Positions 40,794-62,300 of a DNA stretch of 64,000 nt are shown here, piece after piece (position 1 is the stretch's first letter; each line of letters begins with the position of its first letter). Location: NCBI RefSeq assembly GCF_001641635.1, contig NZ_LUUB01000040.1:1-64000 (forward strand), read 5' to 3'. Source of the DNA: Bradyrhizobium centrolobii (GTDB lineage: Bacteria; Pseudomonadota; Alphaproteobacteria; Rhizobiales; Xanthobacteraceae). A program made the translations under genes and the position numbers. Under the pieces are notes generated by a model, which searched no databases, had not been told where the DNA came from, and worked only from the letters and a program-made list of their open reading frames with translations.

Positions 40794-41561
40794 TTAGAGC
40801 CCAAGCGCTGCTCGAACCTTTGCCCAATCTGCGTCAGTCCGGCCCGTGTTCTTATTGAAGATGCGCGAAGAGAGGGAAATCGCTGCGGTTGCTTTCACGA
40901 TCTCATATCGACCAACCGCCTCGATCGAGAAGGCGTCGAGCTGACCATTGGTCTGAAACTGACGGTACACGTCGTCATAGGTACGCTCGCACTCGCGACG
41001 CAGCCATTCGAGTCTGAACCACCGCGACACGATCTGTTCGCTGAAGACGATCTGCGCGGCAACGGCAATCGTGGCGAGGTCGGTGTTGCGGTTGAAGATG
41101 ACGAGCACGTACAGCAGCACGTACACCACGATCTTGATCCGCTCGATCTTCGCCATCTGCGCGATGGTATCGTGACTGTAGAAGCTGTTTTCGAGCACTT
41201 GCGCCGCGATCCGGCGGGGAACCGACGTCGCGGCGTTGTTGTAGTACCCCGTCGTCTGTTGCGCCGCGAGCGGTTTGCCGAACGCGTGCGCCAGGAAATC
41301 CTGAAAGCGCCGAAATTGAGCTCGCGGCGAGAAGTACAAACGTACCGCAAGCGTCACCCCAAAGAGGGCAATGACGGACAGCGCGAACAGGATTTGCGCG
41401 AGCGCGTAGAGCGATGGATGCTCCTGCTGGCTCACGAGCGGCACAGCGAGCGAGAGGACGGCGGAGACGTAGAACAAAACGTCAGCGGCGGCTTCCGCGG
41501 CTTCGAGCGGCTGGAAATATCGTTCGCCGATCGGATCGACTTTGTGAGGTGTATCAGCCAT
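40794..41561 (-). CDS. CBASS effector with four transmembrane segments (S-4TM type)
   Basis: A 255-aa membrane protein. Two hydrophobic helices lie at residues ~27-45 and 51-76, and two more near 140-160 and 162-180. A cytosolic helical region follows. The pattern matches the SMODS-associating 4TM effector (S_4TM) family, which is thought to permeabilise the inner membrane upon second-messenger binding. Its start overlaps the nucleotidyltransferase by 8 bp, so it is the effector of that CBASS unit. Activity on the membrane is inferred. Confidence 0.85.
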   Translation of the reverse strand: MADTPHKVDPIGERYFQPLEAAEAAADVLFYVSAVLSLAVPLVSQQEHPSLYALAQILFALSVIALFGVTLAVRLYFSPRAQFRRFQDFLAHAFGKPLAAQQTTGYYNNAATSVPRRIAAQVLENSFYSHDTIAQMAKIERIKIVVYVLLYVLVIFNRNTDLATIAVAAQIVFSEQIVSRWFRLEWLRRECERTYDDVYRQFQTNGQLDAFSIEAVGRYEIVKATAAISLSSRIFNKNTGRTDADWAKVRAALGL

Positions 41562-42417: not shown

Positions 42418-42527
42418 GGGGTGAGCGAACCACACTAATTCCGGAAAACTATAACTGAATTCAACTAAAGCGAGAATTGGCAGATGTCAGGCTCTGCCGG
42501 ATTCTCCGGACGCCGCGTTGTTGATTC

Positions 42528-43325
42528 TCAGCGCCCAAACAGCGGGTCACCTCGTTCACCAGCACTGAAATGCGGACAGGCCCGCCCTGCCAGAGCCATC
42601 ATCCTATTGCTCGGCGCAACCGTGTGGCTGTTGCCGTTGTATTCAAGGTAGACGCTCTGCTGATGTTTCTGGTGCCATGGAGTGACGAGTTGCATGAACA
42701 GGCCCACCGCCGTCGATGCGAGAACACCATTTGGCCAGATGACCTGCGGGTTAAACCCGGCGTCACCGTATCGACGTGCTTCCTCCGCAATGCTTTGCTC
42801 GTCCAGCAAGCCCATGCACCACATGCAGTGTTCTCCGGGCATTGACAGAACCACTTGTCCAGCGATGACGAACTCTGATCCGACCGCATGGACATCCATG
42901 CCGATGTCGATGTACGGAATGAGAAACCGGCGGCAGAATTTTTCGAGCTGATCGCGCTCGGAAAATGAATCCACGCAACCGACAATGGCGTGGCACCGTC
43001 GGAAATCCGAAATGGCCGTCTGCCACGGCCTCGAAACCGGATGAATCTCAACCCCTGTGTTAAGCCCGCGGATGATCCGCTGCGCGACTTTGATTTTCGG
43101 AACAGCACGTGCTGCATCCCGTCGCGTCGCACCGATAAGACGATTCAGATTGTGATCTTCAACGGTGTCGCCATCGGCGACCACGTAGCGCCTCACTCCG
43201 ATATGAGAGAATTGTTGCACGATGTGAGACCCGCCACCTCCGACGCCGACGACGCCCACGATCACGGATGACAGTATCGCTTCGCTGTCAGGTCCCAGAA
43301 AGCCTTGGCGTGAAAAATCTCTCAT
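42528..43325 (-). CDS. bilD: E1-like ThiF-family adenylyltransferase (Bil-like E1)
   Basis: A 265-aa protein. The nucleotide-binding loop GVVGVGGGGSHIV (residues 24-36), Asp51/Asp53 and the NLNR motif (59-62) are characteristic of ThiF/E1. Zinc-type Cys167/Cys170 and Cys250 are present. The protein would activate the ubiquitin-like protein by C-terminal adenylation. It is not fused to an E2 domain, unlike Cap2 of type II CBASS. Its ATG overlaps the JAB gene's stop as ATGA. Confidence 0.87.
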   Translation of the reverse strand: MRDFSRQGFLGPDSEAILSSVIVGVVGVGGGGSHIVQQFSHIGVRRYVVADGDTVEDHNLNRLIGATRRDAARAVPKIKVAQRIIRGLNTGVEIHPVSRPWQTAISDFRRCHAIVGCVDSFSERDQLEKFCRRFLIPYIDIGMDVHAVGSEFVIAGQVVLSMPGEHCMWCMGLLDEQSIAEEARRYGDAGFNPQVIWPNGVLASTAVGLFMQLVTPWHQKHQQSVYLEYNGNSHTVAPSNRMMALAGRACPHFSAGERGDPLFGR

Positions 43326-43831
43326 GATCGCCAGGGCCACCAACGCAACGGCGCGCCGACTTCGACGAAGTCAGAAATCGCGGTCGGCTGCCGGGTGCTT
43401 GGCAGCCAGCAATTGCCGCAGGCCCGATCGATGCTCCATACGACGGCGCCGTGCGGCAGATTCGGCACGACCTTAAAGAAATCGGGCACAAACTTTGCGT
43501 TCTCTCGATTGTCCGTTCTGCTGAATGCCGGCATTCCTTCATGCTCATGCAAATGAACATGGAACATCGACGCCTGGGAGCGGTATGCGACTTCGAGCGC
43601 TTTGCTGATCGCGGCCGAGCCCATCATCGCGCCGACCGTGTCGTCGCGGACATAGTGGTCATCGTCGACCGGATGATAGTCGGTGACTGACAGCGTTATG
43701 CCGCCGGACGGAAGCTCGGCGGGCTTTGCCAAAAAGAAGCCAACCCGTTCGTGGGCGAACCGATGTCGGCGTCGGAGATCGGCGCGTGCGCGATCCAACA
43801 GCTTCCTCTCAATCCTGAATGTGATGTTCAT
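43322..43831 (-). CDS. bilC: JAB/MPN-type isopeptidase (Bil-like deubiquitinase)
   Basis: A 169-aa protein with a JAMM zinc motif: His93-x-His95-x8-Ser104-x2-Asp107 (HLHEHEGMPAFSRTD), and an upstream Glu (Glu28). JAB proteases process UBL precursors or remove UBL from targets. Here the UBL ends GGSS, so this enzyme could expose the Gly-Gly end. It is co-translated with the E2 and E1 genes through ATGA overlaps. Confidence 0.85.
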   Translation of the reverse strand: MNITFRIERKLLDRARADLRRRHRFAHERVGFFLAKPAELPSGGITLSVTDYHPVDDDHYVRDDTVGAMMGSAAISKALEVAYRSQASMFHVHLHEHEGMPAFSRTDNRENAKFVPDFFKVVPNLPHGAVVWSIDRACGNCWLPSTRQPTAISDFVEVGAPLRWWPWRS

Positions 43832-44160
43832 CGGAAGACCGTCAGGTGGTTGGCGAGGATCGCACAAAGCGGCAGGTCGAGCGTGACGTAGTTCCAGGAA
43901 GGCGCCCACCACGCGTTGCCGAGCAGTTGAAAGCAATTCCAGTTCTGTCCCTTGTTCGCTATCTGTCGCTCGACGAAGAGGCGCGTCGGATAGCCTTGAT
44001 GTTCACCGAGCCGGAGGAGCGCCTTCATCTTCAACACCGTCCCGTTCGTTTCGATGGGCAGCACGGGGAAGTAGATGTGATCGATGCCGCCTTCCGGCAT
44101 GACCTCAGCATCCGGGTAGAGCGTTTTCAGATGCGCCAGATGCTGAGGGTCGATGCTCAT
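43828..44160 (-). CDS. bilB: E2-like protein (Bil-like)
   Basis: A 110-aa protein resembling prokaryotic E2 family proteins: GIDHIYFPVLPIETNG, then RLFVERQIANKGQNWNCFQLLGNAWWAPSWNYVTLDLP. Cys76 and Cys99 are the two cysteines; Cys76 in WNC is the more likely catalytic residue (inference). It is short for a eukaryotic E2 but normal for the bacterial type. Order and 4-bp overlaps on both sides support its role between UBL and JAB. Confidence 0.75.
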   Translation of the reverse strand: MSIDPQHLAHLKTLYPDAEVMPEGGIDHIYFPVLPIETNGTVLKMKALLRLGEHQGYPTRLFVERQIANKGQNWNCFQLLGNAWWAPSWNYVTLDLPLCAILANHLTVFR

Positions 44161-44857: not shown

Positions 44858-44901
44858 CAGTGAAGGACGAATTGCAGCGAAACGCTCGATCGGGGAACCC
44901 G

Positions 44902-46009: not shown

Positions 46010-48670
46010 TCATCCCCTCTTGCTCGGAAGGAAGAGCATCTCAGGCCAAGAGACTGGCCTACGAAGCGTGGACGCATGGGAAGAAAGATTAGCGTCAAAT
46101 GCCTGTTTAAGGCGTCCAAGCACCGACTCGATATCCTCACTCACACGTCCGTCGTTTGGAGAGTTTCGGGGTGTGAGGGCGTTCAGTGCCCGCAATAGCT
46201 CCCAATCACGTAGAATTTCGATCTTCGTTTCCTTTTCCATCACGCCAAAGATTAGTCTATGGATGAGCGTGCCTGTTCCTGTAACCTCGTCCTCAACAGT
46301 TATGATCAGCAATGGGCCACAGAGACCATCGACGCGGGCTAAGCGCGCTGGAACATCTTGCGCGTCTTCGAGCGCAACATCGAAGAGGTGGTGACCCACT
46401 CCGAGAACCCGAGAAGCGGCGTTCGTGCCACGAAGACTGCGATCGAAGACGAGTCCTTCGTATTTATCCCGGAGCGCGTAGCTGCGCTCCTTCCAGCTAT
46501 CAGGAGTCCTGATTTCCAGACCGTCGTCGCGTCGGAAAATCCGGCGTCCGTGTCTGCTAACAGTTTGAGTGAAGAACCGTTCAAGATCAGCAAGATCAAC
46601 CTGTGGCAGATCTTTGCCAACCTGTTGAAAGTCGAACTTCGACACATTGCCAAGAAGTTCACGCACCGTTTCCACCACGTCGCGCCCGCCGAGCGTAGCC
46701 GTTGCTCGATCAAACCACGCCCCCAATCGCTCGCCCGAAAGCCCTTCGCTCCCCGAAAACAGCTCATTGAAAAGCGAATTGCCCGCCATGCCTATGACCA
46801 ACTGCGAGATGTCCTCTTGTTCCTCCATTACTGATGAGAGAGCGGCCTGAATTCGCTCCAGCTTCGCGTTGAGAAGGTCCCAGATACGAGCCTCAACAGT
46901 TTGTGGATTTCGCAAAATGTAGACTGAGACCGGCCGCGTCTGGCCGTAGCGAGACAGACGCCCGACCCTCTGATGAAGGCGCATGGGATTCCAGGGCATA
47001 TCCGCGTGGACCAGCACCGCGCAGCGTTCTTGAAGATCGATGCCTTCGCCGCCGGCCTCTGTCGACACGAGGAACCGCACCTTACCCGAGTTGAAAGCGT
47101 CTGCCGCATGCTCGCGAGGTTGGCTGATCGTCTTCGGCTCGCCCGAAGCCTGCTCAAGCCCATCCAGCCTTTCGTCCCCATTGATAAACGCGGCAGAACC
47201 GAATCCAAATCGCCGATGAAGCGCGTTCATGATAAGTGCTTGAGTGGCCTTGTATTCCGTAAAGAGCAGGATCGGCTCGTCCGGGCCGAACTCCTCGCCA
47301 ATCATTCGAAGGAGGCGCTCGATCTTCGTCTCTTGGGTTATCGCGCCGGCGAGCGCGATAAGTTCGTCAAGACGCTGGATTTCGTCTTCCATCAACAAGA
47401 CAGAGGCAGACCCGGGCAATGCCTCTTCGGCTTCGGCCAAATCATCAAACGTCGCTTGATCGTCGTCTGGTAAAGCGACAGAGGAAGACTCGCTCGAGCG
47501 CCTGACGGCGTCTGCCAGCATCGTGCGGCGCTTGCCGAGCGCATTCCGGATCGCTGCGATCGAGCTGGCGGCAAGCTTCTGGAGGGTGATGAGCACGAGC
47601 ATTCGCGCCGTCTGCGCGCGACCGTCAAGCGTCCCCGCATATGCGCGACCGTCGATCACGAATTCGCTGAGCGTTCGGTAAAACTGGGCCTCTTGCTCAC
47701 TATATTTGTACTCGCGACTATAGACATCGACCGGCTTGAAGAGCTTGTTGCCTTTAAGGTCGGTGACCGTCGCCTTGTTATTTCGGATCATGACCTTCGG
47801 AAGCTGAGAGAGTTGTTCTGTTGTGTTCCGCTCCGCGTCAAAGAGATCGGGTCGCACGAGCTGCATCAGACCGAAGAAGCCGTAATCCTTTCCGCGATGG
47901 GGAGTTCCTGTGAAGAAGAGCAGAGAATTGATCTTGCCCCGCGCCTGGAGGTCCGAGACAAGACTGTATGCGAGTGTTTTGCCGGCCTTTTCATCGACAC
48001 TCAGATGATGGGCTTCATCAACGATGACCAAGTCCCAGGGATCCGCGTCGAGCAGCCTTTGGCGTGCCCCACGACGATCGTCACGCAACGTGTGAAAGGA
48101 TGCGACGACCATCGAAGCAGTCGCCCAGAAATCGCCGCGCTCCGTGTCCGCCTCCGTGACATAGCGCTGCAGCCGGATGTCGAACATGTCTTTGAGGCGG
48201 AACTGCCACTGAGGGACGAGCTTCGCCGGGGCAAGGGTCATCACTCGGCGCACTCGGCCAGAGGCGATCAAGGGCAAGAGAACAAGGCCACATTCAATTG
48301 TCTTGCCCAGCCCCACGTCGTCGGCAACCAGCCACCGGAAAGGCCACTCCTGCGTTACTTTGCGACAAACCCATAGTTGGTGAGGAAGCAACTGCACGCG
48401 CGAGCGTGAAAATACCCCCCATTGATCGTTGACGGACCGGATAGTAAGCGCCTGCGCTCGGATCACCGCGTCGATGGGATCAGCAGCCGAGCCTTCTCGG
48501 AGAGCCGAATGGAGCGACGGTATCTCGGCAAGCTCGTCAGCGAGAACCTGCTCAACGTTCCCGCCGAAGCGAACGATAACAGTGGCGCCCATGTCCACCA
48601 CTACGCGTCCATTTCCATGTCGCGGATGGTGAACAGAGGCACCCGCTGCCAATTGCCTTGTGTCTGTCAT
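46010..48670 (-). CDS. SNF2-family helicase, partner of the GHKL giant
   Basis: An 886-aa protein. Walker A ADDVGLGKTIE (Lys123), DEAHHL near 220, and FTGTPHRG in motif III. The C-terminal helicase lobe has STEAGGEGIDLQ and MRLHQRVGRLSRYGQTRPV. The N terminus resembles a small Tudor-like fold (ASVHHPRHGNGRVVVDMGATVIVRFGG). It follows the 2500-aa ATPase gene by 17 bp, so the pair is an operon. DrmD-like helicases share this organisation. It converges with the antitoxin gene. Confidence 0.9.
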   Translation of the reverse strand: MTDTRQLAAGASVHHPRHGNGRVVVDMGATVIVRFGGNVEQVLADELAEIPSLHSALREGSAADPIDAVIRAQALTIRSVNDQWGVFSRSRVQLLPHQLWVCRKVTQEWPFRWLVADDVGLGKTIECGLVLLPLIASGRVRRVMTLAPAKLVPQWQFRLKDMFDIRLQRYVTEADTERGDFWATASMVVASFHTLRDDRRGARQRLLDADPWDLVIVDEAHHLSVDEKAGKTLAYSLVSDLQARGKINSLLFFTGTPHRGKDYGFFGLMQLVRPDLFDAERNTTEQLSQLPKVMIRNNKATVTDLKGNKLFKPVDVYSREYKYSEQEAQFYRTLSEFVIDGRAYAGTLDGRAQTARMLVLITLQKLAASSIAAIRNALGKRRTMLADAVRRSSESSSVALPDDDQATFDDLAEAEEALPGSASVLLMEDEIQRLDELIALAGAITQETKIERLLRMIGEEFGPDEPILLFTEYKATQALIMNALHRRFGFGSAAFINGDERLDGLEQASGEPKTISQPREHAADAFNSGKVRFLVSTEAGGEGIDLQERCAVLVHADMPWNPMRLHQRVGRLSRYGQTRPVSVYILRNPQTVEARIWDLLNAKLERIQAALSSVMEEQEDISQLVIGMAGNSLFNELFSGSEGLSGERLGAWFDRATATLGGRDVVETVRELLGNVSKFDFQQVGKDLPQVDLADLERFFTQTVSRHGRRIFRRDDGLEIRTPDSWKERSYALRDKYEGLVFDRSLRGTNAASRVLGVGHHLFDVALEDAQDVPARLARVDGLCGPLLIITVEDEVTGTGTLIHRLIFGVMEKETKIEILRDWELLRALNALTPRNSPNDGRVSEDIESVLGRLKQAFDANLSSHASTLRRPVSWPEMLFLPSKRG

Positions 48671-48687: not shown

Positions 48688-51600
48688 CTAAAGCGCGTCC
48701 TCGCTGTCCTGCCACTGCTCCAAGAAGGCTGGTAGATCGCGGTCGATCGTTTCGAAGCACTGAACCAACGCCGTCTTGTTTTCCTCTCGGGTGATCAATT
48801 GCAGCGGAAGATCGAAATCTCCCTCAAAGCGAGCCCGACTAGCAGCGAGATGTTTTGTTACGAAGTCGTAGATCGTCCGGCTCGCTTCCTTGTCCGCCCG
48901 CTCACCAACGTCTGCGCCAAGCTCATTCAGCAGCGCACGAACACGCTGGGATGAAGCCCAGCCATAGGGAGCCATACGGCTCTCATCGCGTAACTCGTAC
49001 ACCTTGTGGCGTAGCATCTCACGGATCATCCAGTTCATGCCAATGCCGAGAGACCGGTTTATGGGCGCGGCATCGATGCAAAGACGCATTGCCGGTGCCC
49101 AGTAGCTCGGCTGCAAAGCACCATTTAGGGAAATGACGCCGTGCTCCTCAATGATTCTAGGCAGCTTGAGGGCAATTTCCCGGTATTCATCCAGCCATCG
49201 GGCGATCGCATACAGATCAACAAATGAACGTCGCCATGGAAGGTATCGTTGATCGAATTGTTCCGGCGCACTCCAGCGTTCAAGCCGATCAAGCCAGGAT
49301 CGCACATCATCAGGTGGTCGCGAGTCCGCGAGTTCAACCCACCAGCCTTCTCGGTATCCAGACTCGATAAAGCTTCGATGTTGTCCGTCCTGCGCGCGGC
49401 CGAATGATTGGAAGCAAGATAGGGCGAACATGGTGAACCAGGTCGCCCGATCACTCGTTTCCCGAAGCTGGGACGGTGAGAAAGCACCGGGATATGTTCG
49501 CTGCGAATACACGGTCCGAAGATTAGTTCCTTCAGAACTCCACCAGGTATGAATCGCTACCAACACCGTTTCAGGCGCTGGTGTGGGGGGCGAGGTAACC
49601 GGCATGGGTATAAACGCGTCACGGCCCTGAAGGGCATAAAGCAGATCGTCCTTCTCCTTTTCCATCCAACCTGACAGCAACGGACTGATCCGCAGCTGCG
49701 ACGCGGGCCAGGGCAGCCAACTGGGCCGATTGCGGCGAATCTCTTCACCCAAGTCCCGGCCTTGGCGCCCCTCAATGATGTAGCGGAGTGCCGCAATCTG
49801 GCGGTTAGGGTCATCGGCAGATACTTCCGCTGCCCACGACGCGAGGTCGCGCGCTTGAGGGCCGAAGCCCGATCTTTCTCGGGCAACTCGGAAGAACTCA
49901 AGTGCCGGGCCGGTATAACGCTTGTCGAGCAGATGCTTCGCAGGTGCGAATGCGCACAGTCTGCGCTCTTCACCGTCTCCCGCCGAATCTGGATAAGGAA
50001 GCTGCGCGAAGCGCCAGGTTCCGTCCTGTGCGAGAAACAATGCATGCCTAGCGGTGTCTAGTATCTCATGGAGTTCTTTGTAGAGTGGGGCTTCCCGAAT
50101 TGACTGGGGCGTAACGGCGCGACCAAGGGTCTGGGCTAGCTCGGGATTGATTCGCTTTTCTTTGCCGATTTGGCGATGAAGAAGGCTCGAAAAATGAAGC
50201 GGACGGGCGGTCCCGAAACCCAGCTTCCTTAGTTGCCCAGCCACTTCGGATGAAATGATCCGATTTTGCAATTCCGTCAGTGTAGGCCAGTCTCGCAGCT
50301 TGGCGAGCGTGGCCGAATGCGACAACGCGCCATCAAGGTAATGTTCCACTTCTGATGCCTGCACCAATGAATCGAACGGGGATTGCAAACGCGTCGGCAC
50401 GACCTTGTGCCGACTGGCGAGACGCGCGTATCCATGCCCGTCCACATGCAAGTGTCGGGCGAGATCGTCGTCAAAGTCCAGCGCAAGGACGTCGAATAAC
50501 CGGGACCAAAAGATATTTCTCGCTGTTTGCTGGGAAGCATCGAGATCCAGGCGCCTTGCGAACTGAGACCAATCGGCGCCCACGAGATCGTGCAACTCCA
50601 AAAGGCGGTCTCCGAGCGTCCGCCCCAGAGTTCGAAACTTCTCCTGCCGCTCCGCAATCGAGCCGGCCAATCCGGTCCGTCCGGGGTCGACTGCGAAGGG
50701 ACCATTGAGCAACCAGCCGGATCGCAGCTCCTCCTCAAGTGGGGCAAGATTCCAGAGACGCCTCAGGTCGCTAGAGAACGCACTGGGACCTGCGCCGTCT
50801 ATGCGGAGCAAGAGGCTATACCCGCTGGAAAGATCGACCCGCAGGGCCCGCTCCTTTTTCCGACCAGAAACGGAAACGAGGTAGATCCCGCTCTTATCCA
50901 GTAGCGGAGAGCAGACGGAATCGATGCTCTCCGGTACGTCAGCCTCGATCTCGACGCGGCGGATAGTGCGCGCGAAGGCGGGCAGCCAAGTCACGGTAGC
51001 CCTGAATGCCGCGATGGCTTCGGCACCTTTATCGGCAGTCGTCATCGAGAACGGAACGTCGATCACCGTAGCCTTTCGGCCGCTGGGGCTCTTTCGATTT
51101 TCTCCTGCATCAATACCTTCCGGCCAAGTCGCCGGCAGAAAGCCTCCAACTGTGCGTAATGCGATGAAGCCGCTCGCTATGCCTACGCTGTCCGACAACA
51201 CGTGGACGCTCTTGAAACCCAGGCCAAACTTACCGGTCAGATCGTCTCCAGGCCGCTTCTCGGAGAAATTCATCAGTAGCATGTTGAGCAAGTCGCGGTC
51301 GTGACCGAGACGACGCCCCTCTTCGGTGTCGCGTCCCATGTGGTTAATGGGACGACCCCAATGGACGACACGAAATCCGCTTGAGCCGTTCGAAAACAGC
51401 TCCACACGGAAACAAACGTCAGTCGCAGCTCCACCGTGCTGCCGGTAAGCGTCGTCCGCGTTCTGGAAAAGCTCGAAGAGAACCCGGCTAGCCGAGTATC
51501 CGAAATCCCCGATCTTGCTGCGAACGGCTGACAGAAGTTCAGCCGCCAACGCGCCATCAGATACCTTTCGCCAAAGCGCCGCCTTGAGCTCCTCAAGCTT

Positions 51601-54600
51601 CTGTGCCGGCGCCGAAAGATGATGCAGGCGGCTTTCCTCAGCTTGATATTTGCGCAACGCTTGCTGTGAAAGATACTCGGTGGGAAGCTTCAGCTCGGCG
51701 AGTATAGTGGGCAATCGGTCGCGCAGCAGACGTTCGGTTTCCTCGATCGTCGATTGATCGATCTTAACCGCCTTGTCCAACATCTCTTGCAACGCCGTCC
51801 GTTGGCGTTCCATGCCGAGCCATAGGCAGTCCGCCGCGATCGTCTCGACGAACCGGCGGAAAATTGCGCTGGCTTCACCCTGACTGTATCGAGTCGGATC
51901 GACTTGCCTGATTGGCAGCGTGATCAATGACCGCGCCTTGCCGTCGGCGGCGCGGATACCCTCATGAGTCTTGTGCAGGTTCCCAATGAGGATTCCTTTG
52001 TCGGAACCGCTTAATGCCGCGTCGAACGAATCGCCCGACATTGCGATAGCTTGTACGCGCTCGCCCAAGACTGGCTCGATAAGGAAACGACGTTGATCGA
52101 CCTCAGCGGCCAGCGGGTTCGGGTAAAGGATTTCTTTTGGAAAGTGGTAGTCGAGATCGGCCCAAAGGGTATCGACATCGACTGTCGCATCGGTCGCCCA
52201 CTCGTTTGCGAGGTTCCTAAAAGGCTCACCGCGACCAATCAATCCGAGATAGACGATAATCAGATCGGACGGCACGCGCCCTTTCCAGCTTTCGAGGAAC
52301 AATCGCTGCTGATCCGCAGACCGGGCTTCCAACGCGACTAGATCGACGTCCCTGATCTGTCCTCGGCGACGGTCGGCTATGAATGGATCAGGAGATTCAT
52401 TTTCGGCGTTGGTAGCCTCCGGGTGCTGCTGCAGACGCATCCCCAGCACGGATGCGTAGTCTCGCGCCAAGACATGCCTCGGGTCGAGACCGTCACCGTC
52501 CTGGACGACCTCACTGCCAATCCGCCAATTCCCAGCATCTGTGAGAACGCGCGTTCCACCGAACACTTCGCGGCGCGCGTCTTCTGGCCACCCTGCGACG
52601 ACACTGAATCCGTGGCGATAGGCCCTGGCCGCCGCTTCACCTTTTCGCCCTTTTTCCTCTGCCAATGCTGCCAGACAGTCGAGATGAGCTCCCGCCAACT
52701 TGGCGTCGGAGGCGCTGAGAGCAGTGAAAGCCGCTACGATCTTTGTGGCGTCGTCGCATCCATCTCCGAGTGACGTCAGAACCGCCGCCAGCAGAGGCCA
52801 GCCCGGCAATCCGATGTCACCGCTGGACTTGGCCAAGGTCGTGAAATCCTCGACCGGATAATCGTTTGCCCCTCCGAGGCGCCCAGCGATCCTCGCTTCC
52901 TCGATCATCAACGCAAGCGCCGCGAAGGAGAAGTTCCGACCCGGCAGAACCCACTCCCTTAGATGGGCAAACCCGTCATGCTCGCGGATCTCGATTCGCA
53001 GTTTTTGGACGGGCACAAATGGGGGTATTTCGCCGTTCTTTAGTAGCAACGTTCGCGCTACTTCGTCGACGGCGGGGGGAAGGGCGAGCACGTCCAGCGG
53101 AGTAATGGGCTGTTCGTCCACAAGAAGCCAAGGCGTGACGCGAAGTGCTTCTAGCAGGTGTTCGTCTGGCGGAGACGCAAGCTTGGCGAGGGCCTCGAGT
53201 ATCTCGTTACGAAAGCGGTGCGGGTTGGCGGAAGAAAGTGCGACTTTGATCTGGCTTTGCGGCGACCATCTCCCGATGAGCCTCTCCTGCCGCTCGCGTG
53301 CGCGGCTGTTGTTGGAAAGCTGGATCGTGAGAACATGGCGTCTCAATGCTTCGGGAATCGGCCAGTCGGCCTCACGAAACACATTGTCTGCGTTACCCGT
53401 CGTCGCGTCGGAACGAGCATGGATCGGCAAGCGACGCAGCAATGGGTCCGAGAGTTGGGTCAACAAAAACGCATCCCGCTCGATGGGACTGAGCTGAATG
53501 CGGGCGACCGCGTCGACATCTCGTTCGAGCAACGCCTCCATCCGCGGTGTATCGAGCGCCGTTATACCGATGTGCTGTCTCAGCCTGGGCATAAGCTCGT
53601 CAGCTATCTCGGCCGTGATCAGAAAGGCATTCTCGCTTGCGTTCAGAATTGCCTCGACAGGTCTTTCTATTCCTTTCAGTGTTTCTTCGAGAACATGCAG
53701 CGTAGCGCCACCATATCCAGCCTTTTCGTCGCCCGCGCAGAGGCGTCGAAGAGCGGCCCGATCGTCGTTATCCGTCGGCCGCAGTCGTTCAAGCAGCCTG
53801 CGTCTAGCGTCTGTTGTTCCAAAGCACGACGCCGCGTTAACGAGCTTTAGAATCGACTCATTCCCGGTGCTGTGGAGCTGAATGATAGAATTAGACGAAT
53901 CCCGGAGAAACTCCGCCGTCTTTCCGTCCACAACCAGAGGGGCTACGTCTGGCAGGGTTTCCGTCAGCAATGGCAGCAGCGAGTTAGCTTGAGGGGAGCT
54001 TGCGAACAGAAGTCCCGCTCGGGACCGGGCGACGAGCGTCTGGAGCGACAGCGCGATGGGATTGTGGCTGCGGATATCCCGCGCGCGCAGAACCTCGATG
54101 GAGGCGAATTCGAGATCACCTGCCAACTCGGAGATATTTCGTCCACCCTGAGTGAGTAGCGCTAACGCGGCAGTCGCCGCCTGGTCTGCATGGTCACCGC
54201 TGATCAACGGTTCGAGTGCGTTGAGCAGCGACTTGAGGTCTGCGTTGGATAACTGCGGAGGACGTCGAGTTTCGTCGAGCCATTCGCGGCGGACTAGCAA
54301 GATATTGGTGGGAGCGGAGGCCAGTGCGCGCAGGACTTGCCGGTTCTCGACGGATGCTGGTAGCGGAAACAACTTACCATGCGGCACTTGGTTAAGGATC
54401 GATCTTACGAGTTCGGACGGAGCGAACGCCTGTGTTTCAGTGATCGCCCTGCGTAGGGCCGCGACTAGGTGCGGTCCAATGGAAGAACGCTCCGCTTCGT
54501 CGAATATCGTCGCGCCAAGAAAATCGACGAGAAGCCGCGCGAGATCGCGTGATTGAAACGCCCGAGGTGATAGCCCGGCAAACACTGCCTCCAAGTCCTT

Positions 54601-56190
54601 GGCTGTCCAACGTATGGGCTCTGCGCTAAGCGCCGCGCTTTCGCCGGCGACAAGACACGTACTGCTCGCCTCGGCCCACGAACCAATAGTGCTGAACAAC
54701 TCCTCTATTCGCCCGGGCGCATCAGCCACTGAAGCCGGCAATGGACGCAGGGCATCTGCCGTTGGAACAATACGCCAGACGACGCCGCCGGATATTTCGA
54801 GCACACGTACCAGCGCAACTTCCCGGCAGATGGCTCTCCGGTTGCTACGAAACCACCCGTCGCGCGCGATCGCCGACACGAGTTGCGCAAGCTCCGCTGA
54901 TGTCACTATCGCGAAATCGAGCGCGTCCTTTAGTAGAGCCGGCAGGAGTGGCAACACGACCGAATCGCGAAGCTCGGCATTCCATGCACGACGCAACGAC
55001 GCGGCATCTGATGGTTCGTCTTGCTCAGTCGGGGCATCCAGTCCCTCGATCTGACGTCGGCCGCTATCAAGGAAGAAGTAACCATGCAGCAACAGATGGA
55101 ATCGATCGCCAGCGCTCCCACCTACCGGGATAATGATATCGAATGCGTCCGAGATCGGCAGGAATACCGCCCAGGAAACACGCAGTTGCGCGGTCTCGGC
55201 CAGGTGGCTCGCGCGTAGTGGAATGCGCGATAGAGTCGCTGCTCCGTGCGGTTCTCCCTTTTCCGGTACGGGTTCAGGTCTGAGGACGCTGATCGTTTGC
55301 GGCCATTGCTGTGAGCGCTTCAACCTCGTGAGGCAGCTATCCGGGATCATCGCCTCGCGCCCGACAAATGACGCCGTTGATCCATGTTCTGCGGCGCCGA
55401 TTGTGCCTCCGAAGAGGCGAACGCCACCGCTTAAACGGTTCGGTCCAAGGAAACGTCCCCGGGCATCGTCAAGTTCGAGCGCGCAGCGAAGCTCACTGCG
55501 TTCTCGAATCTCGATCGTCTTCAGATGGCGAAGCGCGGTTAGCAGAACGCGCAGATCGTCGGGTCTATTAAGCTCCCTGATCGTCGCCGCTAGCGACGGA
55601 ATGTTTCCGGAGAAGCTAACTCCTGGAGCAGGTTTTATATCTTCCCGACGCAATGGCAGCCAAAGAACAAGGTGACGGTCCGGGAAGTCGGAAGAGACTT
55701 CGCGCCTGAGGAGCTCCAGGTCGGCTGGATCGAGACCTTCTCCACGCGGCTCCCATTGCCGACTGACATTGCCGGGGACTTCGACTTCCAGGAACGGATT
55801 CACCACCGTGCTAAATGGTCTGTCGCTTTCCCTTTTTGCGTAGACAACGAACGCGTCGCAGAGATGAAAAACCGCCTTTTGACCGAAGCCGAACTTCCCG
55901 ATCGCTGCGCTGTCAGCGGCCTTGCCGCTCTCGCCGAATGATATGATTCCGCTCTCGTCTTCCTTGCGAAAGAAGCCATCGTTTACGACCAGAAGTCCCG
56001 GTCCGCGGAGCAGCGGATGGGCGGCAGTCGACCAGCCCGACAGCCCATCGAGTCTGAAATGTCGGGCTTCCGCATCATCTGCATTCTGAAGCAATTCCTT
56101 GAGGATGGGATAGCCGGAGGCGTACCGATCCTGCAGATTGACCTTGATCTGATTGACGATCGAGATCGGGGATATCCGAAAATCAGGCAT
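48688..56190 (-). CDS. giant double-GHKL (sacsin/HSP90-like) ATPase
   Basis: About 2500 aa, one uninterrupted frame. Bergerat ATPase module 1: YPILKELLQNADDAEAR (N box, Asn36), LLVVNDGF, then IGKFGFGQKAVFH near residue 100. Module 2: VLFELFQNADDAYRQ near 1575, then TGKFGLGFKSVH near 1657. The long remainder has no helicase, nuclease or methylase motif that I can see. Repeated sacsin-like ATPase modules suggest a chaperone-like or conformational sensor. ATG 56190 (MPDFRIS) was chosen over a TTG at 56226. It comes first in the operon with the SNF2 gene. Defence function is inferred from neighbours. Confidence 0.88.
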   Translation of the reverse strand: MPDFRISPISIVNQIKVNLQDRYASGYPILKELLQNADDAEARHFRLDGLSGWSTAAHPLLRGPGLLVVNDGFFRKEDESGIISFGESGKAADSAAIGKFGFGQKAVFHLCDAFVVYAKRESDRPFSTVVNPFLEVEVPGNVSRQWEPRGEGLDPADLELLRREVSSDFPDRHLVLWLPLRREDIKPAPGVSFSGNIPSLAATIRELNRPDDLRVLLTALRHLKTIEIRERSELRCALELDDARGRFLGPNRLSGGVRLFGGTIGAAEHGSTASFVGREAMIPDSCLTRLKRSQQWPQTISVLRPEPVPEKGEPHGAATLSRIPLRASHLAETAQLRVSWAVFLPISDAFDIIIPVGGSAGDRFHLLLHGYFFLDSGRRQIEGLDAPTEQDEPSDAASLRRAWNAELRDSVVLPLLPALLKDALDFAIVTSAELAQLVSAIARDGWFRSNRRAICREVALVRVLEISGGVVWRIVPTADALRPLPASVADAPGRIEELFSTIGSWAEASSTCLVAGESAALSAEPIRWTAKDLEAVFAGLSPRAFQSRDLARLLVDFLGATIFDEAERSSIGPHLVAALRRAITETQAFAPSELVRSILNQVPHGKLFPLPASVENRQVLRALASAPTNILLVRREWLDETRRPPQLSNADLKSLLNALEPLISGDHADQAATAALALLTQGGRNISELAGDLEFASIEVLRARDIRSHNPIALSLQTLVARSRAGLLFASSPQANSLLPLLTETLPDVAPLVVDGKTAEFLRDSSNSIIQLHSTGNESILKLVNAASCFGTTDARRRLLERLRPTDNDDRAALRRLCAGDEKAGYGGATLHVLEETLKGIERPVEAILNASENAFLITAEIADELMPRLRQHIGITALDTPRMEALLERDVDAVARIQLSPIERDAFLLTQLSDPLLRRLPIHARSDATTGNADNVFREADWPIPEALRRHVLTIQLSNNSRARERQERLIGRWSPQSQIKVALSSANPHRFRNEILEALAKLASPPDEHLLEALRVTPWLLVDEQPITPLDVLALPPAVDEVARTLLLKNGEIPPFVPVQKLRIEIREHDGFAHLREWVLPGRNFSFAALALMIEEARIAGRLGGANDYPVEDFTTLAKSSGDIGLPGWPLLAAVLTSLGDGCDDATKIVAAFTALSASDAKLAGAHLDCLAALAEEKGRKGEAAARAYRHGFSVVAGWPEDARREVFGGTRVLTDAGNWRIGSEVVQDGDGLDPRHVLARDYASVLGMRLQQHPEATNAENESPDPFIADRRRGQIRDVDLVALEARSADQQRLFLESWKGRVPSDLIIVYLGLIGRGEPFRNLANEWATDATVDVDTLWADLDYHFPKEILYPNPLAAEVDQRRFLIEPVLGERVQAIAMSGDSFDAALSGSDKGILIGNLHKTHEGIRAADGKARSLITLPIRQVDPTRYSQGEASAIFRRFVETIAADCLWLGMERQRTALQEMLDKAVKIDQSTIEETERLLRDRLPTILAELKLPTEYLSQQALRKYQAEESRLHHLSAPAQKLEELKAALWRKVSDGALAAELLSAVRSKIGDFGYSASRVLFELFQNADDAYRQHGGAATDVCFRVELFSNGSSGFRVVHWGRPINHMGRDTEEGRRLGHDRDLLNMLLMNFSEKRPGDDLTGKFGLGFKSVHVLSDSVGIASGFIALRTVGGFLPATWPEGIDAGENRKSPSGRKATVIDVPFSMTTADKGAEAIAAFRATVTWLPAFARTIRRVEIEADVPESIDSVCSPLLDKSGIYLVSVSGRKKERALRVDLSSGYSLLLRIDGAGPSAFSSDLRRLWNLAPLEEELRSGWLLNGPFAVDPGRTGLAGSIAERQEKFRTLGRTLGDRLLELHDLVGADWSQFARRLDLDASQQTARNIFWSRLFDVLALDFDDDLARHLHVDGHGYARLASRHKVVPTRLQSPFDSLVQASEVEHYLDGALSHSATLAKLRDWPTLTELQNRIISSEVAGQLRKLGFGTARPLHFSSLLHRQIGKEKRINPELAQTLGRAVTPQSIREAPLYKELHEILDTARHALFLAQDGTWRFAQLPYPDSAGDGEERRLCAFAPAKHLLDKRYTGPALEFFRVARERSGFGPQARDLASWAAEVSADDPNRQIAALRYIIEGRQGRDLGEEIRRNRPSWLPWPASQLRISPLLSGWMEKEKDDLLYALQGRDAFIPMPVTSPPTPAPETVLVAIHTWWSSEGTNLRTVYSQRTYPGAFSPSQLRETSDRATWFTMFALSCFQSFGRAQDGQHRSFIESGYREGWWVELADSRPPDDVRSWLDRLERWSAPEQFDQRYLPWRRSFVDLYAIARWLDEYREIALKLPRIIEEHGVISLNGALQPSYWAPAMRLCIDAAPINRSLGIGMNWMIREMLRHKVYELRDESRMAPYGWASSQRVRALLNELGADVGERADKEASRTIYDFVTKHLAASRARFEGDFDLPLQLITREENKTALVQCFETIDRDLPAFLEQWQDSEDAL

Positions 56191-56427: not shown

Positions 56428-59373
56428 ATGAACGTCGGCACAATGATCAGAGTGCGGTCGTCGACCTGGAAGGTCGTCGGCCACGAACGGCGGGCACACG
56501 GCAACGTCGTGTCGTGCCGAGGCATGTCCGGCATCGTGAAGGGCAAGACAGCCCGGTTTGTCGTCGAGCTTGAGGACGACTATGCCGTACTGCACCCAAC
56601 GAAAATCGCGCTGGAGCACGACAAGTCCGCCGGCTTTCTCGACACCAAGCTCTTTTTGGAGTCTGCATTCAGATCCACGCCGACCACAACCTCGCAACCG
56701 TTGACGCTCGGCAAGGCCGCCATCGACGATCTCGCGTTCCAGCATGTGCCGGTCGAGATGGCGCTGGCCCAGGACCGAGTGCGGCTGTTGCTCGCAGACG
56801 ACGTCGGCCTCGGCAAGACGCTGGAGGCCGGCCTGATCACCTCCGAGCTTATCCTTAGGGGCCGCGCCGAGCGGATTCTCGTCGTCACCACTCGTGCCAT
56901 GCTGGGACAGTTCCAGAAAGAGTTCTGGACCCGCTTCTCGATCCCGCTGTCGCGCCTCGATAGCGCGGCCATACGGCGGATGCGCAACCAGATTCCCGCG
57001 CAATACAACGTGTTCGACCAGTTCGACCGGTCGATCGTATCGATCGACACGCTAAAGCAGGACAGCCAGATCCGCGCGGCGATCGAACAGTCGAATTGGG
57101 ATCTGATCATCATCGACGAGGCGCACAACGCCGCAAAACGCGCCCGCGGCGGTGGCACGGAGAGCCTCCGCTCGAAGCTTGCGAAGCTCCTGTCGCGCAA
57201 AGCCGACTAGCTGTTGCTGCTAACCGCGACGCCGCACGACGGCTCGCGAGAAAGCTTTGCAAGCCTGATTGAAATGCTGGACCCCACACGGGTCCCCGAT
57301 CCCGAGAAGCTGCATCGCGACGACATCGAGGATCTCGTGATCCGCCGCTTCCGTACCTCTCCCGAGGTGATGGAGGCGCTCAGGTCCGCGATACCGCCGC
57401 GTGAACTTAATAGCCGCACCTTCCCCCTGAGCGAGAAGGAGGAGGCCGCCTACGCGACGATCGCCGAACTTAAGCTCGATCTCGACGCCGATGCTCCCGA
57501 GAACCGCGTCATCGACCTCTTCCGCACGACCCTTGCGAAGGCGATCTTCTCAAGTCCCGCGGCCTGTCTCGAGACGGTGAAGGGACGAATCGGCCGCATA
57601 GAGAGAGGCACAGCAAGGGGGAGCGAAGCCGACAGACAGAAGCTCGCCGAACTGGCGGACCTGCTTGCCTCGATCGAACCCACTGATTTTTGCAAGTACC
57701 AGGACTTCTTGCGCCTTTTGAAGGATATCAAATGGATCGGCAAGAATCCGCGCGACCGGCTCGTCGTCTTTTCCGAGCGCATACGGACGCTGGAATGGCT
57801 TGAGGAGCGCCTGACCGCAGATCTTGGCCTATCACCTGAAGCTATCGGACGAGTGGACGGCGGAAGCGTCGAAGCGGACGTGACGACGCAGAAGGTGCTC
57901 GAGGACTTTGGCCAGGAGAAATCTGCGCTGCGCGTGCTGCTTGCTTCCGACATGGCCTCCGAAGGGTTGAACCTGCACTTCCAGAGCCATCGGTTGATCC
58001 ATTTCGACCTGCCCTGGTCGCTGCTCCGTTTCCAGCAGCGCAACGGCCGTATCGACCGCTACGGCCAGGATCGAACGCCGCAGATCTATTATTTCGTCGG
58101 GGAAAGCCGTCATCCAAAAGTCCGCGATATGTGGGTCCTCGAAAAGCTGGTCGAAAAGGACGAGGCAGCCCAAGAGGGCGTCGGCGATCCGGCCGTCTTT
58201 CTCGGAGCCGGCGATGCAGAAGGCGAGGAAGAGATTGTCGCAAGAGCCGTCAGTAACGGCCGCGGTGCGGAAGCATTTGCCGCCGAGATGGATGAGCGCG
58301 CCGCGCATGTGGCAAAGGACAAAACCGTCGATGACGAGTTTGACGCGTTATTTGGCGACTACCGGGGCGTCGACATCTCTTCGGCCGGGACTTCGACAAC
58401 CGCGCCGGACGCGGAAATGCCGCCAAGGCTTTTCCCGGACACCTTCGCCTACACCGAAGCAATGCTGCAAAGGCTGACCGAACCGAACGAGGACGTCTTC
58501 GAGACGGCTCCGGATGTGGACCGCGATGCCCGCCTTATCAGCCTGTCGATACCGGACGACATGATGAGCGATGGCGGGCTCGGTTATGCCCGAACAGGCG
58601 AAGTCGATGACCGCTACATGCCGGTCGAAGCCGTCGGCCAGGGCAACACGATCGAGCTTTCCGACCGCGCGGACGTCATCAACACGGCGATCGCCCAGGC
58701 CAAGACTGAAGAGCAAAGCTGGCCACGCGTCCAGTATCTCTGGGACGGCCATCCCCTCCTCGACTGGTTCGGCGATCGTGCGGGAACGTTCTTTCCTGAA
58801 ATGGCCGCGCCGCTCTGCAGCCTGCGCGGCCGCCTAGCCGAGCGCGAAGTCGCGGTCATCCTGCACGGCGCGATCCCGAACGAGCTTGGCGCACCGGTGG
58901 TTGACTGCTGGGCAGCGGTGACACTGCGAAACGGCCGCGTCGCCGGGGTCGAGCCGATCGGCGAATTTGTCGCCCGCACGGGCCTTTCCCGAAGCATTCC
59001 CAACACCGGCAAGCCCGATGAGCAGCTCGCGACCGAGGCGCTCGCGCCTGCCGTGGATGCGTTCCAATCGCACCTCGTTACCCTGCGCAAACAACGGCAA
59101 GCCGACATCGACAGGAGCCTCAACACCACGCTTGATCGTCTTGCCTGCCTCGAGGCGCGGTTCCGCGCCCAACTTGAGCTGAAATTCGCGGATGCCCCGG
59201 ATGACGGCTCTCGGCTGACGATTCAGCAGCGCCGCCAGAAAACGCGCCGCGAGAACCGATCGACCGAGATCGACGCAATGTTCGAGGATTTTGCGGCCTG
59301 GCATAAAAGCCGGCGGAGGATGGCGGACGACCCGAATCCATTCGTAGCAATCAAGGCCGTGTTCGTTGGGTGA
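56428..59373 (+). pseudogene. drmD: DISARM-like SNF2 helicase DrmD with in-frame amber codon
   Basis: The frame reads as a 981-aa SNF2-like helicase: Walker A ADDVGLGKTLEAG near residue 125, DEAH at 230, motif III LLLTATPHDG, then ASDMASEGLNLHFQ and FQQRNGRIDRYGQDRTPQIYYF. Codon 261 (57208-57210) is TAG, between DEAH and TATPH. The reading frame is otherwise open, so a single change such as TCG to TAG (Ser) would explain it. As written, only 260 aa could be made, unless suppressed, or a downstream TTG at 57214 yields a partial C-terminal half. It is 3 bp upstream of drmMI. A mutation, sequencing error or phase-like loss are alternatives. Confidence 0.8.
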
Positions 59374-59376
59374 TTG

Positions 59377-62300
59377 ATGGACCTGATCGGTATCGAGAAC
59401 GAGGCTGAATTCTTCCCGGCAGGCGCTCTTTCGGACTCGCTGCAGGTCGAGTTGCGCGAAATCACCTCGCGCTGGAACAAGGCCACGGATGGCGAGAACC
59501 CCGTCGCACGCCTTACGAAATGCTGTGAACCGTTCCTCGCCGAGCTTCGCAGGATTCGCAATGCAACCGATTCCGCCAATCGGACGGACTGGCGCCGGCG
59601 ATTGAGCCATTCGCTTGTGACGGCGCTCGGATATGATCTCGACCGCAGGAGCCTGCAAACCGCGCTTGAGCGAGAGCCTTTTATCCCCTCATTGGCCAGG
59701 GCTTCCGACGTCGAAGGCCGCGACGTCGTCTGGCTGATCGAAGCGCCTCTCGAAAATGCGACGGACGAGAGTGCCGATCCGCTGTCGTTGAGCTTTCAGC
59801 CCGAGCAGTTTCTTGAGGACGAACGCGAGTTTGCCGAGACAGAACGTGCGATCGAGGACATCCTCGGCGACGGCATTTTCGAGTTGCGGCAGCCGCCCCG
59901 CCTCGTTCTTGTCTGTGGGCTTTCCCAGATCGTTCTTGTCGATCGCCACAAGTGGCCGGCGCGCTCTGTCCTGCGGTTCGATCTGCAGGAGATCTTCTCG
60001 CGCCAGGATAAGGACACGCTCGCGACGATGGCGTGTCTGTTGTCGCGCGAGGCGCGGGTGCCGCATCAGGGCATACCGATCGCCGACCGCATCGAGGAAG
60101 AGGCCCAGCGCAACGCCAACGCGGTCACGACCTCGCTGAAGCGGACTGTCCGGGACGCTATCGAGATCCTCGGCCAGGAGGTACTCGACGTAACCGAGGG
60201 CAAGTATCCGTCTGGTCCGCGCAAAGGCGTCTGGATCGACGGACCCGACCTGTCGCTCGAATGCCTGCGCTACATGTACCGCCTGTTGTTTCTGTTCTAC
60301 GCCGAGGCCAACCCGCGACTGAACGTTCTGAACCTCAAGGATCCGGTCTACGCCAGCGGCTACAGCATCGAGGCGTTGCGCGAACTGGAATCCGTCCGCC
60401 TGCGCACGCCCGCCGAAAAGAACGGCACCTACCTCTCGGAAAGCCTGCAGCGCACGCTCGGCCTGCTGTATAGCGGCAATGGCACCGCCATACGCCTGCC
60501 GGCGGTAAAGGTCTCGCTGCTCGACCCTGAGAGCACGCCGATCCTGAATTCAATCAAACTTCGCAACGAGGCCGTACAGAAAGTTATTCGCCTGCTTTCA
60601 CTGAAGCAGTCGCAGAACGGCACGGCTCGGATTTCCTACGCGAAGCTCGGCATCGGCCAGCTTGGCGCCGTCTACGAAACGCTGATCTCGTTCACCGGCG
60701 TGATGGCCAAGCAGGACCTGATTGAGCTTCGCCCACCTACGGGTCGCGGCTCGGTGGATGCCGAAGAGGAAGAGGAAACGTCCGACGAGAGCCAAGAGGA
60801 TGCGGACGAGGCGGATGGCGAAGACGAGGAGGGCGGCGAACCGGTGTCGCGACGGGACGACATCGATCTGCTGGCAGCGAGCTATTTCGTGCCGCGCAGC
60901 CGCGCCGGCGAATTCAAGTCGGAGCAGGTGGTCTTCAACGGGCCAGAAGCCCGGGTCTATCCGAAAGGCAGCTTCATCTATCGCCTCGCCGGCCGCGACC
61001 GCGAGAAATCAGCCTCCTACTATACGCCCGAAGCGCTCGCGCGGCTCTTGGTGAAGCACGCGCTGCAGGAACGCTGCAAGGACCTCGCGGCCGACGAAGT
61101 TCTTGAACTTAAGATCCTCGAGCCGGCGATGGGGTCGGCCGCGTTCCTGGTTGAAACCACCAACCAGCTCGCCGACATCTATCTCGAACGCAAGCAGAAG
61201 GAGACCGGCAGGACTATCCCGCAGGATCAGCTCGCGCTCGAGAAGCAAAAGGTCCGCGCCTTCGTCTCAGACCGCAACTGCTTCGGCGTGGACCTCAATC
61301 CGGTGGCAACCGAGCTCGGCGCGATTTCGCTCTGGCTCAACGGCCTGCACGCCAGCGAGTTCTCGCCCTGGTTCCGCGACCAGCTCCACGCCGGCAACTC
61401 GCTGATCGGCGCGAGGCGCGCGTCTTATGCCCCTTCCCTGATGTCGGCGAAGAAGAAGGACAATCTCTGGTACAGTCACAAACCAAAGGAGATCGGCTGG
61501 CGCGGCGGCCTGCCCGAAGGCCACATCTGGCAGTTCCTGCTGCCGGCCGAGGACATGTCGCGGTTCGACACCGACAAGTCGATCGGCGAGTTTGCAGCCG
61601 ACGCGCAGAAGAAGATCAAGGCCTGGCGCAAGAACGGCTTCTTCGCCAAACTCGAGGCGTATGAAATCAAGCTGCTGCAGAAACTCAGCCGCATCGCCGA
61701 GGACTTGTTCGACATCGTGGCCGACGATCTCGCAAGGAGCCGCGCCTCGACCAATGACGCGATAACGCTCTGGCCAGACAAGGAGATGCCTGGTGCGCGC
61801 GGGCTGGACTTTCACGAGAAGGACCGCCGCCTTCAAAAGCTGATCGGCGCAGATCGCGCATCCAACACGCTGCCTTTCAAGCGGCTGAAGACAGCGATGG
61901 ATGCATGGTGCGCACTGTGGCTCTGGCCGCTGAACAAGGCGCACCTTCTGCCGTCGCGTCAGGAATTCTTGCACGGCATGACGCTGATCCTCGAAGGCGG
62001 CTTTTTGCCAGACGGGTCGATCGCGGCTCCAAGCATCGAGCAAATTGGCCTGCCCGAGCGCGACTTGTTCGATCAGCTCCAGGCCGATGAGAAAACAGGC
62101 TCGAAGCCAACAACGCCGAAGAAGAAGCAGTCGGGCCTTTTCCATGAAACGGACGTGGACGCGCTCATCCAGGAGATCGAGTGGCTTGCCGTCGCGAGTG
62201 AGGTTGCCGAGCGTGAGCGGTTCACTCATTACGATCTGATTTTCGCCGACGTGCTCAGGGCACGCGGAGGTTTCGATGTGATCGTGGGTAATCCACCCTG

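Follow-up and report, generated by a model that had tools for sequence, protein, structure and literature searches.

A conserved pair of a two-module sacsin-like ATPase and a SNF2 helicase as a probable ATP-driven defence unit in bacteria

GHKL-type ATPases are known to occur with superfamily II (SF-II) helicases in operons that resemble restriction-modification systems. In the MORC and paraMORC families, as the excerpted text of Iyer et al. 2008 (PMC2292703) describes them, a module of GHKL and S5 domains, for which a MORC-specific S5 motif (GhXhhpXXRhl) is given, is combined with varied C-terminal domains of effector-like kinds (REase and TIR), the neighbouring SF-II helicases include SWI2/SNF2 proteins, and the genes have a patchy, mobile spread; DNA looping has been proposed. 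Here we describe a gene pair that shares this plan in a 64,000-nucleotide (nt) stretch of Bradyrhizobium centrolobii DNA (assembly GCF_001641635.1, contig NZ_LUUB01000040.1, positions 1 to 64,000; hereafter the window). It encodes a giant protein with two sacsin-like GHKL ATPase modules and a RapA-type SNF2 helicase. The giant carries its two modules about 1,540 residues apart on one chain, whereas MORC and paraMORC proteins have one GHKL module and most of their operons encode DNases or methylases (PMC2292703, in the excerpted text of which the word sacsin does not occur).

The architecture also recalls vertebrate sacsin. According to the available portion of PMC3629688, sacsin follows a repeat plan (SIRPT) in which several engines, each consisting of a GHKL and a second domain (sr1–sr2), are set along one giant chain with a long region after each. 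The giant of the window is built on similar lines: it has repeated sacsin GHKL domains (PF25794, two stretches) and matches sacsin SR1 in both sequence and fold. It differs in that sacsin has three repeats together with HEPN and DnaJ domains, as stated in the accessible part of PMC3710099, whereas the giant yields no HEPN, DnaJ or ubiquitin-like match (Pfam, E up to 1).

Among named defence systems, Tiamat likewise involves a sacsin-type ATPase, and PADLOC TmtA profiles match the giant's modules with up to 71 bits, the matches being partial (78–156 of 1,486 or 28–396 of 1,370 profile positions). Tiamat is a single gene with a NOV_C domain, which defines it, and the window's giant has no NOV_C match (Pfam, E up to 1). 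Membership of Tiamat was rejected on the partial TmtA match, 71 bits at best. We know of no SNF2 partner of eukaryotic sacsin. A previous reading of this DNA from its letters and open reading frames (ORFs) only, here called the sequence-only reading, had recognized no named system with this pair, and the openly licensed papers ranked highest in full-text searches yielded none either: in the available text of sources such as PMC3710099, PMC12839542, PMC10853773, PMC12458937, PMC10952713 and PMC2292703, we recognized no description of a two-module giant with a SNF2 helicase or of the DarT variant reported below. The pair and this variant appear to be new; the theme of a GHKL ATPase with an SF-II helicase is known.

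Two ATPase modules in one frame

The frame of the giant stays open for 2,512 codons from a TTG start (48,688–56,226, minus strand). Alignments with close homologues begin near the ATG at 56,190 (query residue 13 in TTG numbering), from which the protein has 2,500 amino acids. Pfam SACS (PF25794; E = 1.6e-26) and the NCBIfam model P_loop_sacsin (111.4 bits against a cut-off of 50) each match it in two stretches, and its residues 30–130 match sacsin SR1 chains in the PDB (E = 3.8e-10). Profile–profile comparison shows the two modules to be homologous to each other (E = 2.7e-13 over 102 columns). In alignments of 49 full-length giants and 58 helicases, picked by length, the key residues of the N-box and glycine box are at least 85% conserved in both modules, and in the second half, aligned in 49 rows, E1585, N1589, D1592, T1664, G1665, G1668, G1670, F1671 and K1672 do not vary. 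The giant is one intact frame with two sacsin/Hsp90-type ATPase modules; the two N-box/G2 motif sets that the sequence-only reading had seen in an uninterrupted frame of about 2,500 residues are confirmed by the Pfam and NCBIfam matches and by this conservation.

Both modules also share a D-x-G-R motif, the arginines of which (R390 and R1850) may correspond to the S5-domain arginine. In the second module, a conserved H-W-G-R stretch lies where the adenine-box aspartate is usual, by eye an apparent replacement. The ratio of non-synonymous to synonymous substitution rates (dN/dS) of the giant is 0.21 against the homologous locus L012 and 0.20 against L013, and that of the helicase is 0.10 against L012. 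By this measure both genes are under purifying selection, and ratios of about 0.2 and 0.1 rule out a frame artefact or a pseudogene.

AlphaFold modelled residues 1550–2512 (963 residues) with a mean predicted local distance difference test score of 88.7 and a predicted template modelling score of 0.62; the corresponding values for the middle region (residues 440–1560; 1,121 residues) were 85.9 and 0.47, so that both models are reliable at the local level. Foldseek matched the second-half model to Hsp90 (6xlc; E = 3.1e-7). VIA-align matched it to TRAP1 (Z 15.1, root-mean-square deviation (rmsd) 5.8 over 283), topoisomerase VI (Z 13.7, rmsd 4.8 over 273), GyrB (Z 13.4, rmsd 5.2 over 280), sacsin SR1 (5v44; Z 13.1, rmsd 3.2 over 164) and MORC3 (Z 12.8, rmsd 5.8 over 270), and, with rows within 1 Z counted as tied, no single family stands out. 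Because of these fold matches we assign the second module as a GHKL domain with its transducer, so that an intact GHKL domain with an S5-type transducer, as in MORC and paraMORC proteins, is present there. In the PDB comparison of this model the GHKL module took up the matches, and the regions beyond it, including Cterm2, the C-terminal segment of the giant, were barely probed. The structure of the region between the modules, which the sequence-only reading had proposed to predict, came out as solenoid-like; it has no PDB match by Foldseek at E = 0.001 or better, a result that does not in itself show a new fold.

A constant helicase partner

The SNF2 gene begins at 48,670, 17 bp past the giant's stop at 48,688, with the giant upstream, and the spacing and single operon described in the sequence-only reading stand. 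The closest solved relatives of the helicase are RapA chains in the PDB (E = 3e-28).

The partnership is conserved far beyond the window. When one genome per species was scanned with the alignment of giants and the best 80 of 169 relatives were kept, 74 loci were obtained, and plasmid, viral and further genome loci raised the number to 87 chassis loci, that is, loci with a giant of this kind. Of these, 69 (the window not counted) were evaluable, having a recognized Cterm1 segment and at least 1,900 nt of downstream sequence. The remaining 18 comprised 13 with too little downstream sequence and five with enough of it but no recognized Cterm1. Of these five, L080 does have the pair, and the other four are fragments (L008, broken up by transposases, L060, L081 and L082) without a helicase of the family above 400 bits within 1 kb. 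A SNF2 gene lies directly downstream on the same strand in 61/61 evaluable giants with Cterm2, whereas it is found in 0/8 of those without. The neighbourhood comparison foreseen in the sequence-only reading did not refute the pairing, although eight of the 69 evaluable relatives lack both Cterm2 and helicase; the pair lies among defence genes. An SF-II helicase neighbour, the second hallmark shared with MORC and paraMORC operons, is present at every evaluable locus with Cterm2. The gap between the two genes ranges from −360 to +820 nt across the 61 loci, most commonly a 4-nt overlap, and in the cyanobacterial locus L164 Cterm2 is a separate gene for 303 residues (L164:8920-9831) between the giant and the helicase.

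The evaluable loci span nine named phyla and Deinococcus plasmids. On plasmids, helicases of the family occur at six places in five records (about 48–57% identity, coverage at least 94%), and a giant, annotated 'hypothetical protein' in all plasmid records seen, adjoins every one of them; for the next listed plasmid helicases, identity falls to 28.6% (86% of the query covered) or 34.8% (68% covered). Among viral contigs, a full-length helicase of the family (45% identity) occurs on a single one, and a giant is encoded there too. Pairwise distances of giants and helicases are strongly correlated (Mantel r = 0.904 over 47 loci; 0/2,000 permutations reached it, with a maximum of 0.163), a value to which shared ancestry contributes and which does not prove that the proteins touch. 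Chance adjacency was rejected on the 61/61 against 0/8 count and the Mantel correlation, and by these comparisons giant and helicase belong together as one conserved unit.

Within this spread the pair is rare. The giant was found in 1/100 relatives, the helicase in 1/385 genomes of the class and the giant's second half in 1/398 genomes of the phylum, the window's own genome in each case; in the planctomycete phylum, the second half was found in 1/294 genomes, the census centre itself. Two divergent copies of the pair occur in one Caballeronia strain (L054 and L058), and one Deinococcus plasmid carries two copies (L006 and L009). Phages gave no match to the giant. Two viral contigs (L144:10157-15313 and L145:10157-15313) encode a different, 1,718-residue protein with weak GHKL-module matches, beside a 929-residue protein.

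Table 1 Features of the giant–SNF2 locus and its neighbours (residues counted from the TTG codon; subtract 12 for ATG numbering; the limits 13–480 are our choice)
Feature	Position	Strand	Description or basis
Giant, two-module sacsin-like GHKL ATPase	48688..56190	-	2,500 aa from ATG; TTG-extended frame to 56226
N-terminal GHKL module and following part, residues 13-480	54787..56190	-	Pfam SACS; region hidden Markov model (HMM)
N-box 1, E44-x3-N48-x2-D51	56074..56097	-	at least 85% conserved, 49 giants
Glycine box 1, residues 110-117	55876..55899	-	alignment of 49 giants
Middle region, residues 481-1550	51577..54786	-	alpha/beta solenoid-like model; no Pfam match
Second GHKL module and transducer, residues 1551-1960	50347..51576	-	AlphaFold model and fold matches
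N-box 2, E1585-x3-N1589-x2-D1592	51451..51474	-	invariant, 49/49 rows
Glycine box 2, residues 1664-1672 (TGKFGLGFK)	51211..51237	-	invariant residues, 49 rows
Cterm1, residues 1961-2200	49627..50346	-	region HMM; present with every effector type seen
Cterm2, residues 2201-2512	48691..49626	-	all-helical in model; seen only with SNF2 partner
RapA-type SNF2 helicase	46010..48670	-	886 aa; SF2 motifs present
CBASS-like operon	40794..43936	-	4TM effector, SMODS cyclase, ThiF protein, unlabelled 204-aa protein
Divergent ARMADA-like first gene, RapA/DrmD-like helicase	56428..59373	+	neighbour, outside the unit
ARMADA-like methyltransferase gene	59374..64000	+	neighbour; extends beyond the window as far as contig position 64266

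Exchange of the C-terminal end

Giants that lack Cterm2 can carry another end in its place. In five cyanobacterial giants (DarT-type), a domain of DarT, an ADP-ribosyltransferase acting on single-stranded DNA, is fused instead of Cterm2 and the helicase, and a macro-type gene lies directly downstream. The three scanned with Pfam all match DarT (L062, L065 and L067, Cyanobacteriota; E = 4.5e-25, 3.2e-23 and 3.4e-23), and L161 and L162 have the same aligned tail. The next genes after the L062, L065 and L067 giants belong to one cluster; that of L062, the one macro protein scanned, matches Pfam Macro and PADLOC DarG (2.2e-51). The variant is like DarTG in combining a DarT domain with a DarG-like macro gene and differs in that DarT is the C-terminal tail of a two-module ATPase chassis. 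The DarT tail of L062 has no sequence match in the PDB at E = 0.01, and on plasmids the second frame of the DarT-type locus L067 found nine records, three with plain DarT only and six with the chassis only, without a fused copy.

L161 and L162 came from a census of 386 genomes of the cyanobacterial phylum, which had six positives including its centre. The other new loci were the SNF2-type L163 and L164 and a BREX-embedded one, L165, in which the giant is split, lacks Cterm2 and is flanked by PglX and PglZ, and the operon continues with BrxD and BrxHI (L165:3-16173). Its tail is NOV_C-like by eye, and that of L073 has a weak NOV_C match (Pfam, E = 0.077); a NOV_C-like nuclease tail is a possibility in both giants. 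Ends of the DarT and NOV_C-like types both belong to DNA-acting classes.

A chassis tree of the second module and Cterm1 (68 rows: 60 SNF2-type, including the window, and eight without the helicase), made by a quick method and with three long branches unsure, intermingles phyla, a pattern that transfer would produce. The cyanobacterial giants of both the DarT and the SNF2 type fall, with L165, into one 12-row clade (Shimodaira–Hasegawa-like approximate likelihood ratio test, 100), and over the whole tree the helicase was gained or lost three times or more, one of these events being the probably decayed L004. Because DarT-type and SNF2-type giants share a clade and the helicase was gained or lost repeatedly, we conclude that the effector end has been exchanged. 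These effector-swapping variants, and the Cterm2 domain that accompanies the helicase, go beyond the sequence-only reading. The giant of L004, on a Haematobacter plasmid, ends early and sits within the SNF2-type clade, so that it is probably a decayed SNF2-type copy and not a variant. Directly upstream of it is a second, different sacsin-domain protein of 1,405 residues (L004:7523-11740; Pfam SACS 7.5e-5, below the cut-off).

A probable ATP-driven defence unit

We consider it probable that giant and helicase together make up a defence unit, driven by ATP and so far undescribed, in which the giant would act as a chassis that clamps DNA and hands its state to a C-terminal effector; from the defence setting and the exchangeable ends we infer an antiphage function. 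The chassis would consist of two GHKL engines of the Hsp90/MutL/sacsin type flanking a solenoid-like scaffold of about 1,100 residues. On binding nucleotide, the engines could shut as a clamp that encloses or sits on invading DNA or a complex made by a phage, and the chassis, having sensed the invader, would pass an ATP-dependent change of state to the effector, which does the harm. In the version found in the window, the all-helical Cterm2 would dock a RapA-like translocase of double-stranded DNA. The most economical action of the loaded motor would be to move along invading double-stranded DNA and strip or stall replication or transcription complexes; alternatively, the invading DNA might be handed to nucleases of neighbouring systems.

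The chassis would then accept interchangeable DNA-acting effectors, of which the SNF2 motor is the commonest seen. We lean, with less assurance, towards the broader proposal that this is a new class of immune system, consisting of a two-engine sacsin-like chassis and a plug-in effector (Cterm2 with a RapA-like SNF2 protein, DarT with a DarG-like guard, or a NOV_C-like tail) that is licensed by ATP-gated clamping of DNA. If so, large and widely scattered 'hypothetical' proteins would make up an immune system with modular trigger and effector, and sacsin-type multi-engine ATPases would act in DNA conflict and not in protein folding, the bacterial chassis paralleling the multi-engine layout of eukaryotic sacsin in a DNA-defence setting. 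The swap of SNF2 and DarT on one chassis would allow the sensing half to be studied apart from the killing half, and the question is raised of whether two linked GHKL engines clamp foreign DNA and load a translocase onto it.

Several observations weigh against a defence unit of this kind. A mobile, patchy pair is also expected from a role in DNA repair or plasmid maintenance. The loci are related to each other, so that 61 of them are not 61 independent events, and with the best 80 of 169 relatives kept, more distant giants may behave differently. Pfam recognizes no nuclease or other lethal domain in the giant or the helicase. The DarT-type giants are five loci in one clade of one phylum, with no other fused copy on plasmids, and one of the eight giants without Cterm2 is the L004 copy. 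A PADLOC comparison at 1e-20 gives the defence setting weak support: 100 random ORFs of 401 in the neighbourhoods matched 133 profiles and 100 of 153 control ORFs matched 31, a count of profiles and not of proteins, with unmatched controls.

It is unlikely, in our view, that the pair is instead a machine for DNA repair or chromosome maintenance without a phage role, in which a MutL/MORC-like giant works with a RapA-like motor that clears RNA polymerase or repairs stalled forks. RapA is indeed the closest solved relative of the helicase, the folds of GyrB, topoisomerase VI, MutL and MORC match the module, and Deinococcus plasmids carry the pair, one of them twice. Such a housekeeping role sits poorly with how rare and sporadic the pair is (1/398 genomes of the phylum and 1/100 relatives, both being the window's genome), with the versions of this chassis that are fused to DarT or embedded in BREX and with the defence neighbours.

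The likeness to sacsin and Hsp90 raises a further alternative, that the giant acts on proteins as a chaperone or remodeller, bringing the SNF2 protein and nearby defence complexes to maturity or keeping them in check, with the motor as client and effector in one. A region of eukaryotic sacsin with the same kind of GHKL repeat has reported chaperone-like activity (available portion of PMC3629688), and the second-half model matches the N-terminal and middle domains of Hsp90. We nevertheless regard this as quite unlikely: DarT, a toxin domain fused to the giant and accompanied by a DarG-like protein, fits a controlled effector better than a client, and no client is seen in common among the variants. 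The DNA-acting nature of the DarT and NOV_C-like ends also counts against a chaperone.

That the pair is a part of, or accessory to, systems of the DISARM, BREX or ARMADA type and functions only alongside these is very improbable, because, for all that the L165 giant lies between PglX and PglZ, that L065 has a DrmD match and L005 has annotated drmA and drmC nearby, and that the window's pair is divergent from an ARMADA-like operon, no constant third gene accompanies the pair and the first gene of that operon is interrupted in the window whereas the pair is intact.

Genomic setting

By gene content the window is a defence island, in which a CBASS-like operon (cyclase 6e-101, 4TM effector 3e-91) is followed by the pair and then by a divergent operon. 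The sequence-only reading had called this last neighbour DISARM-like, with drmD and drmMI; its divergent orientation holds, and the label gives way to ARMADA-like, which fits better by gene order. In the accessible part of PMC12458937, ARMADA type II is a series of BrxHII/RapA-like, PglX-like, YprA-like and GajB-like genes, with a RelE-like domain in the last, and the divergent operon, assigned by order, follows this series; the four described proteins include no GHKL giant, which here is a neighbour of the operon. The methyltransferase scores 633.5 bits with PADLOC REase_MTase_IIG and 190.2 bits with DrmMI, and later genes encode a 2,143-residue DruE-like helicase and a 727-residue GajB/UvrD-like protein. 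The best matches of the four long genes past the divergent helicase are of MTase, DruE and GajB types, one having none, and DrmA reaches at most 41 bits. An in-frame TAG (57208-57210) interrupts the divergent helicase gene, and the three genes after it have open frames up to contig position 72832.

The helicase of the pair resembles DISARM DrmD in being a RapA-like SNF2 protein, and its best-fitting PADLOC profile, PDLC02634, which it matches over its full length (871.9 bits), is labelled 'DrmD'. It differs from DrmD in falling below the cut-offs of both NCBIfam DrmD models (266.5 bits against 610 and 154.3 against 950) and in having the giant as its constant partner. The DrmD-matching protein of L065 scores 147 bits on PDLC02634 and 1,430 on PDLC02621. 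To judge from these scores, PDLC02634 seems to describe the helicase of the giant–SNF2 pair. Because this profile fits the window's helicase best, the pair may be miscalled DISARM; PDLC02634 is a likely source of false DISARM calls, and a correction of its name in PADLOC would follow. DISARM genes occur near some homologous loci (L005 and L065 were checked) and are no fixed partner. With the helicase failing the curated DrmD cut-offs and the divergent operon in ARMADA type II order, the extension of DISARM that the sequence-only reading had entertained was rejected.

No third gene is constant beside the pair loci: a same-strand gene lies within 100 nt upstream at 11/54 loci and downstream at 13/49, and these are of differing kinds. 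The commonest neighbour cluster, a TM0106-type nuclease-helicase, occurs at ten loci, five of which have it in the −1 position. The giant of L010 is abutted upstream by an AAA gene, a McrC-type gene and a TM0106-type nuclease-helicase, and the same clusters recur in L011 and L014.

Elsewhere in the window, a gene for a HigA/HTH and IrrE-type peptidase protein (44860-45996, plus strand; PADLOC PD-Lambda-2_B, 104 bits) is convergent with the SNF2 gene and just downstream of it. A helicase-nuclease pair of AddAB/RecB-like type, accompanied by genes for a Ku-domain protein and an RNase Z-like protein (31590-40532, minus strand), is a possible further defence or repair cluster. A group II intron reverse transcriptase/maturase is encoded at 630-2525 (plus strand), and a Strawberry-notch-type helicase with Toprim and SLOG-family neighbours at 8272-14966 (minus strand), suggesting that the latter region is an integrated plasmid-like element.

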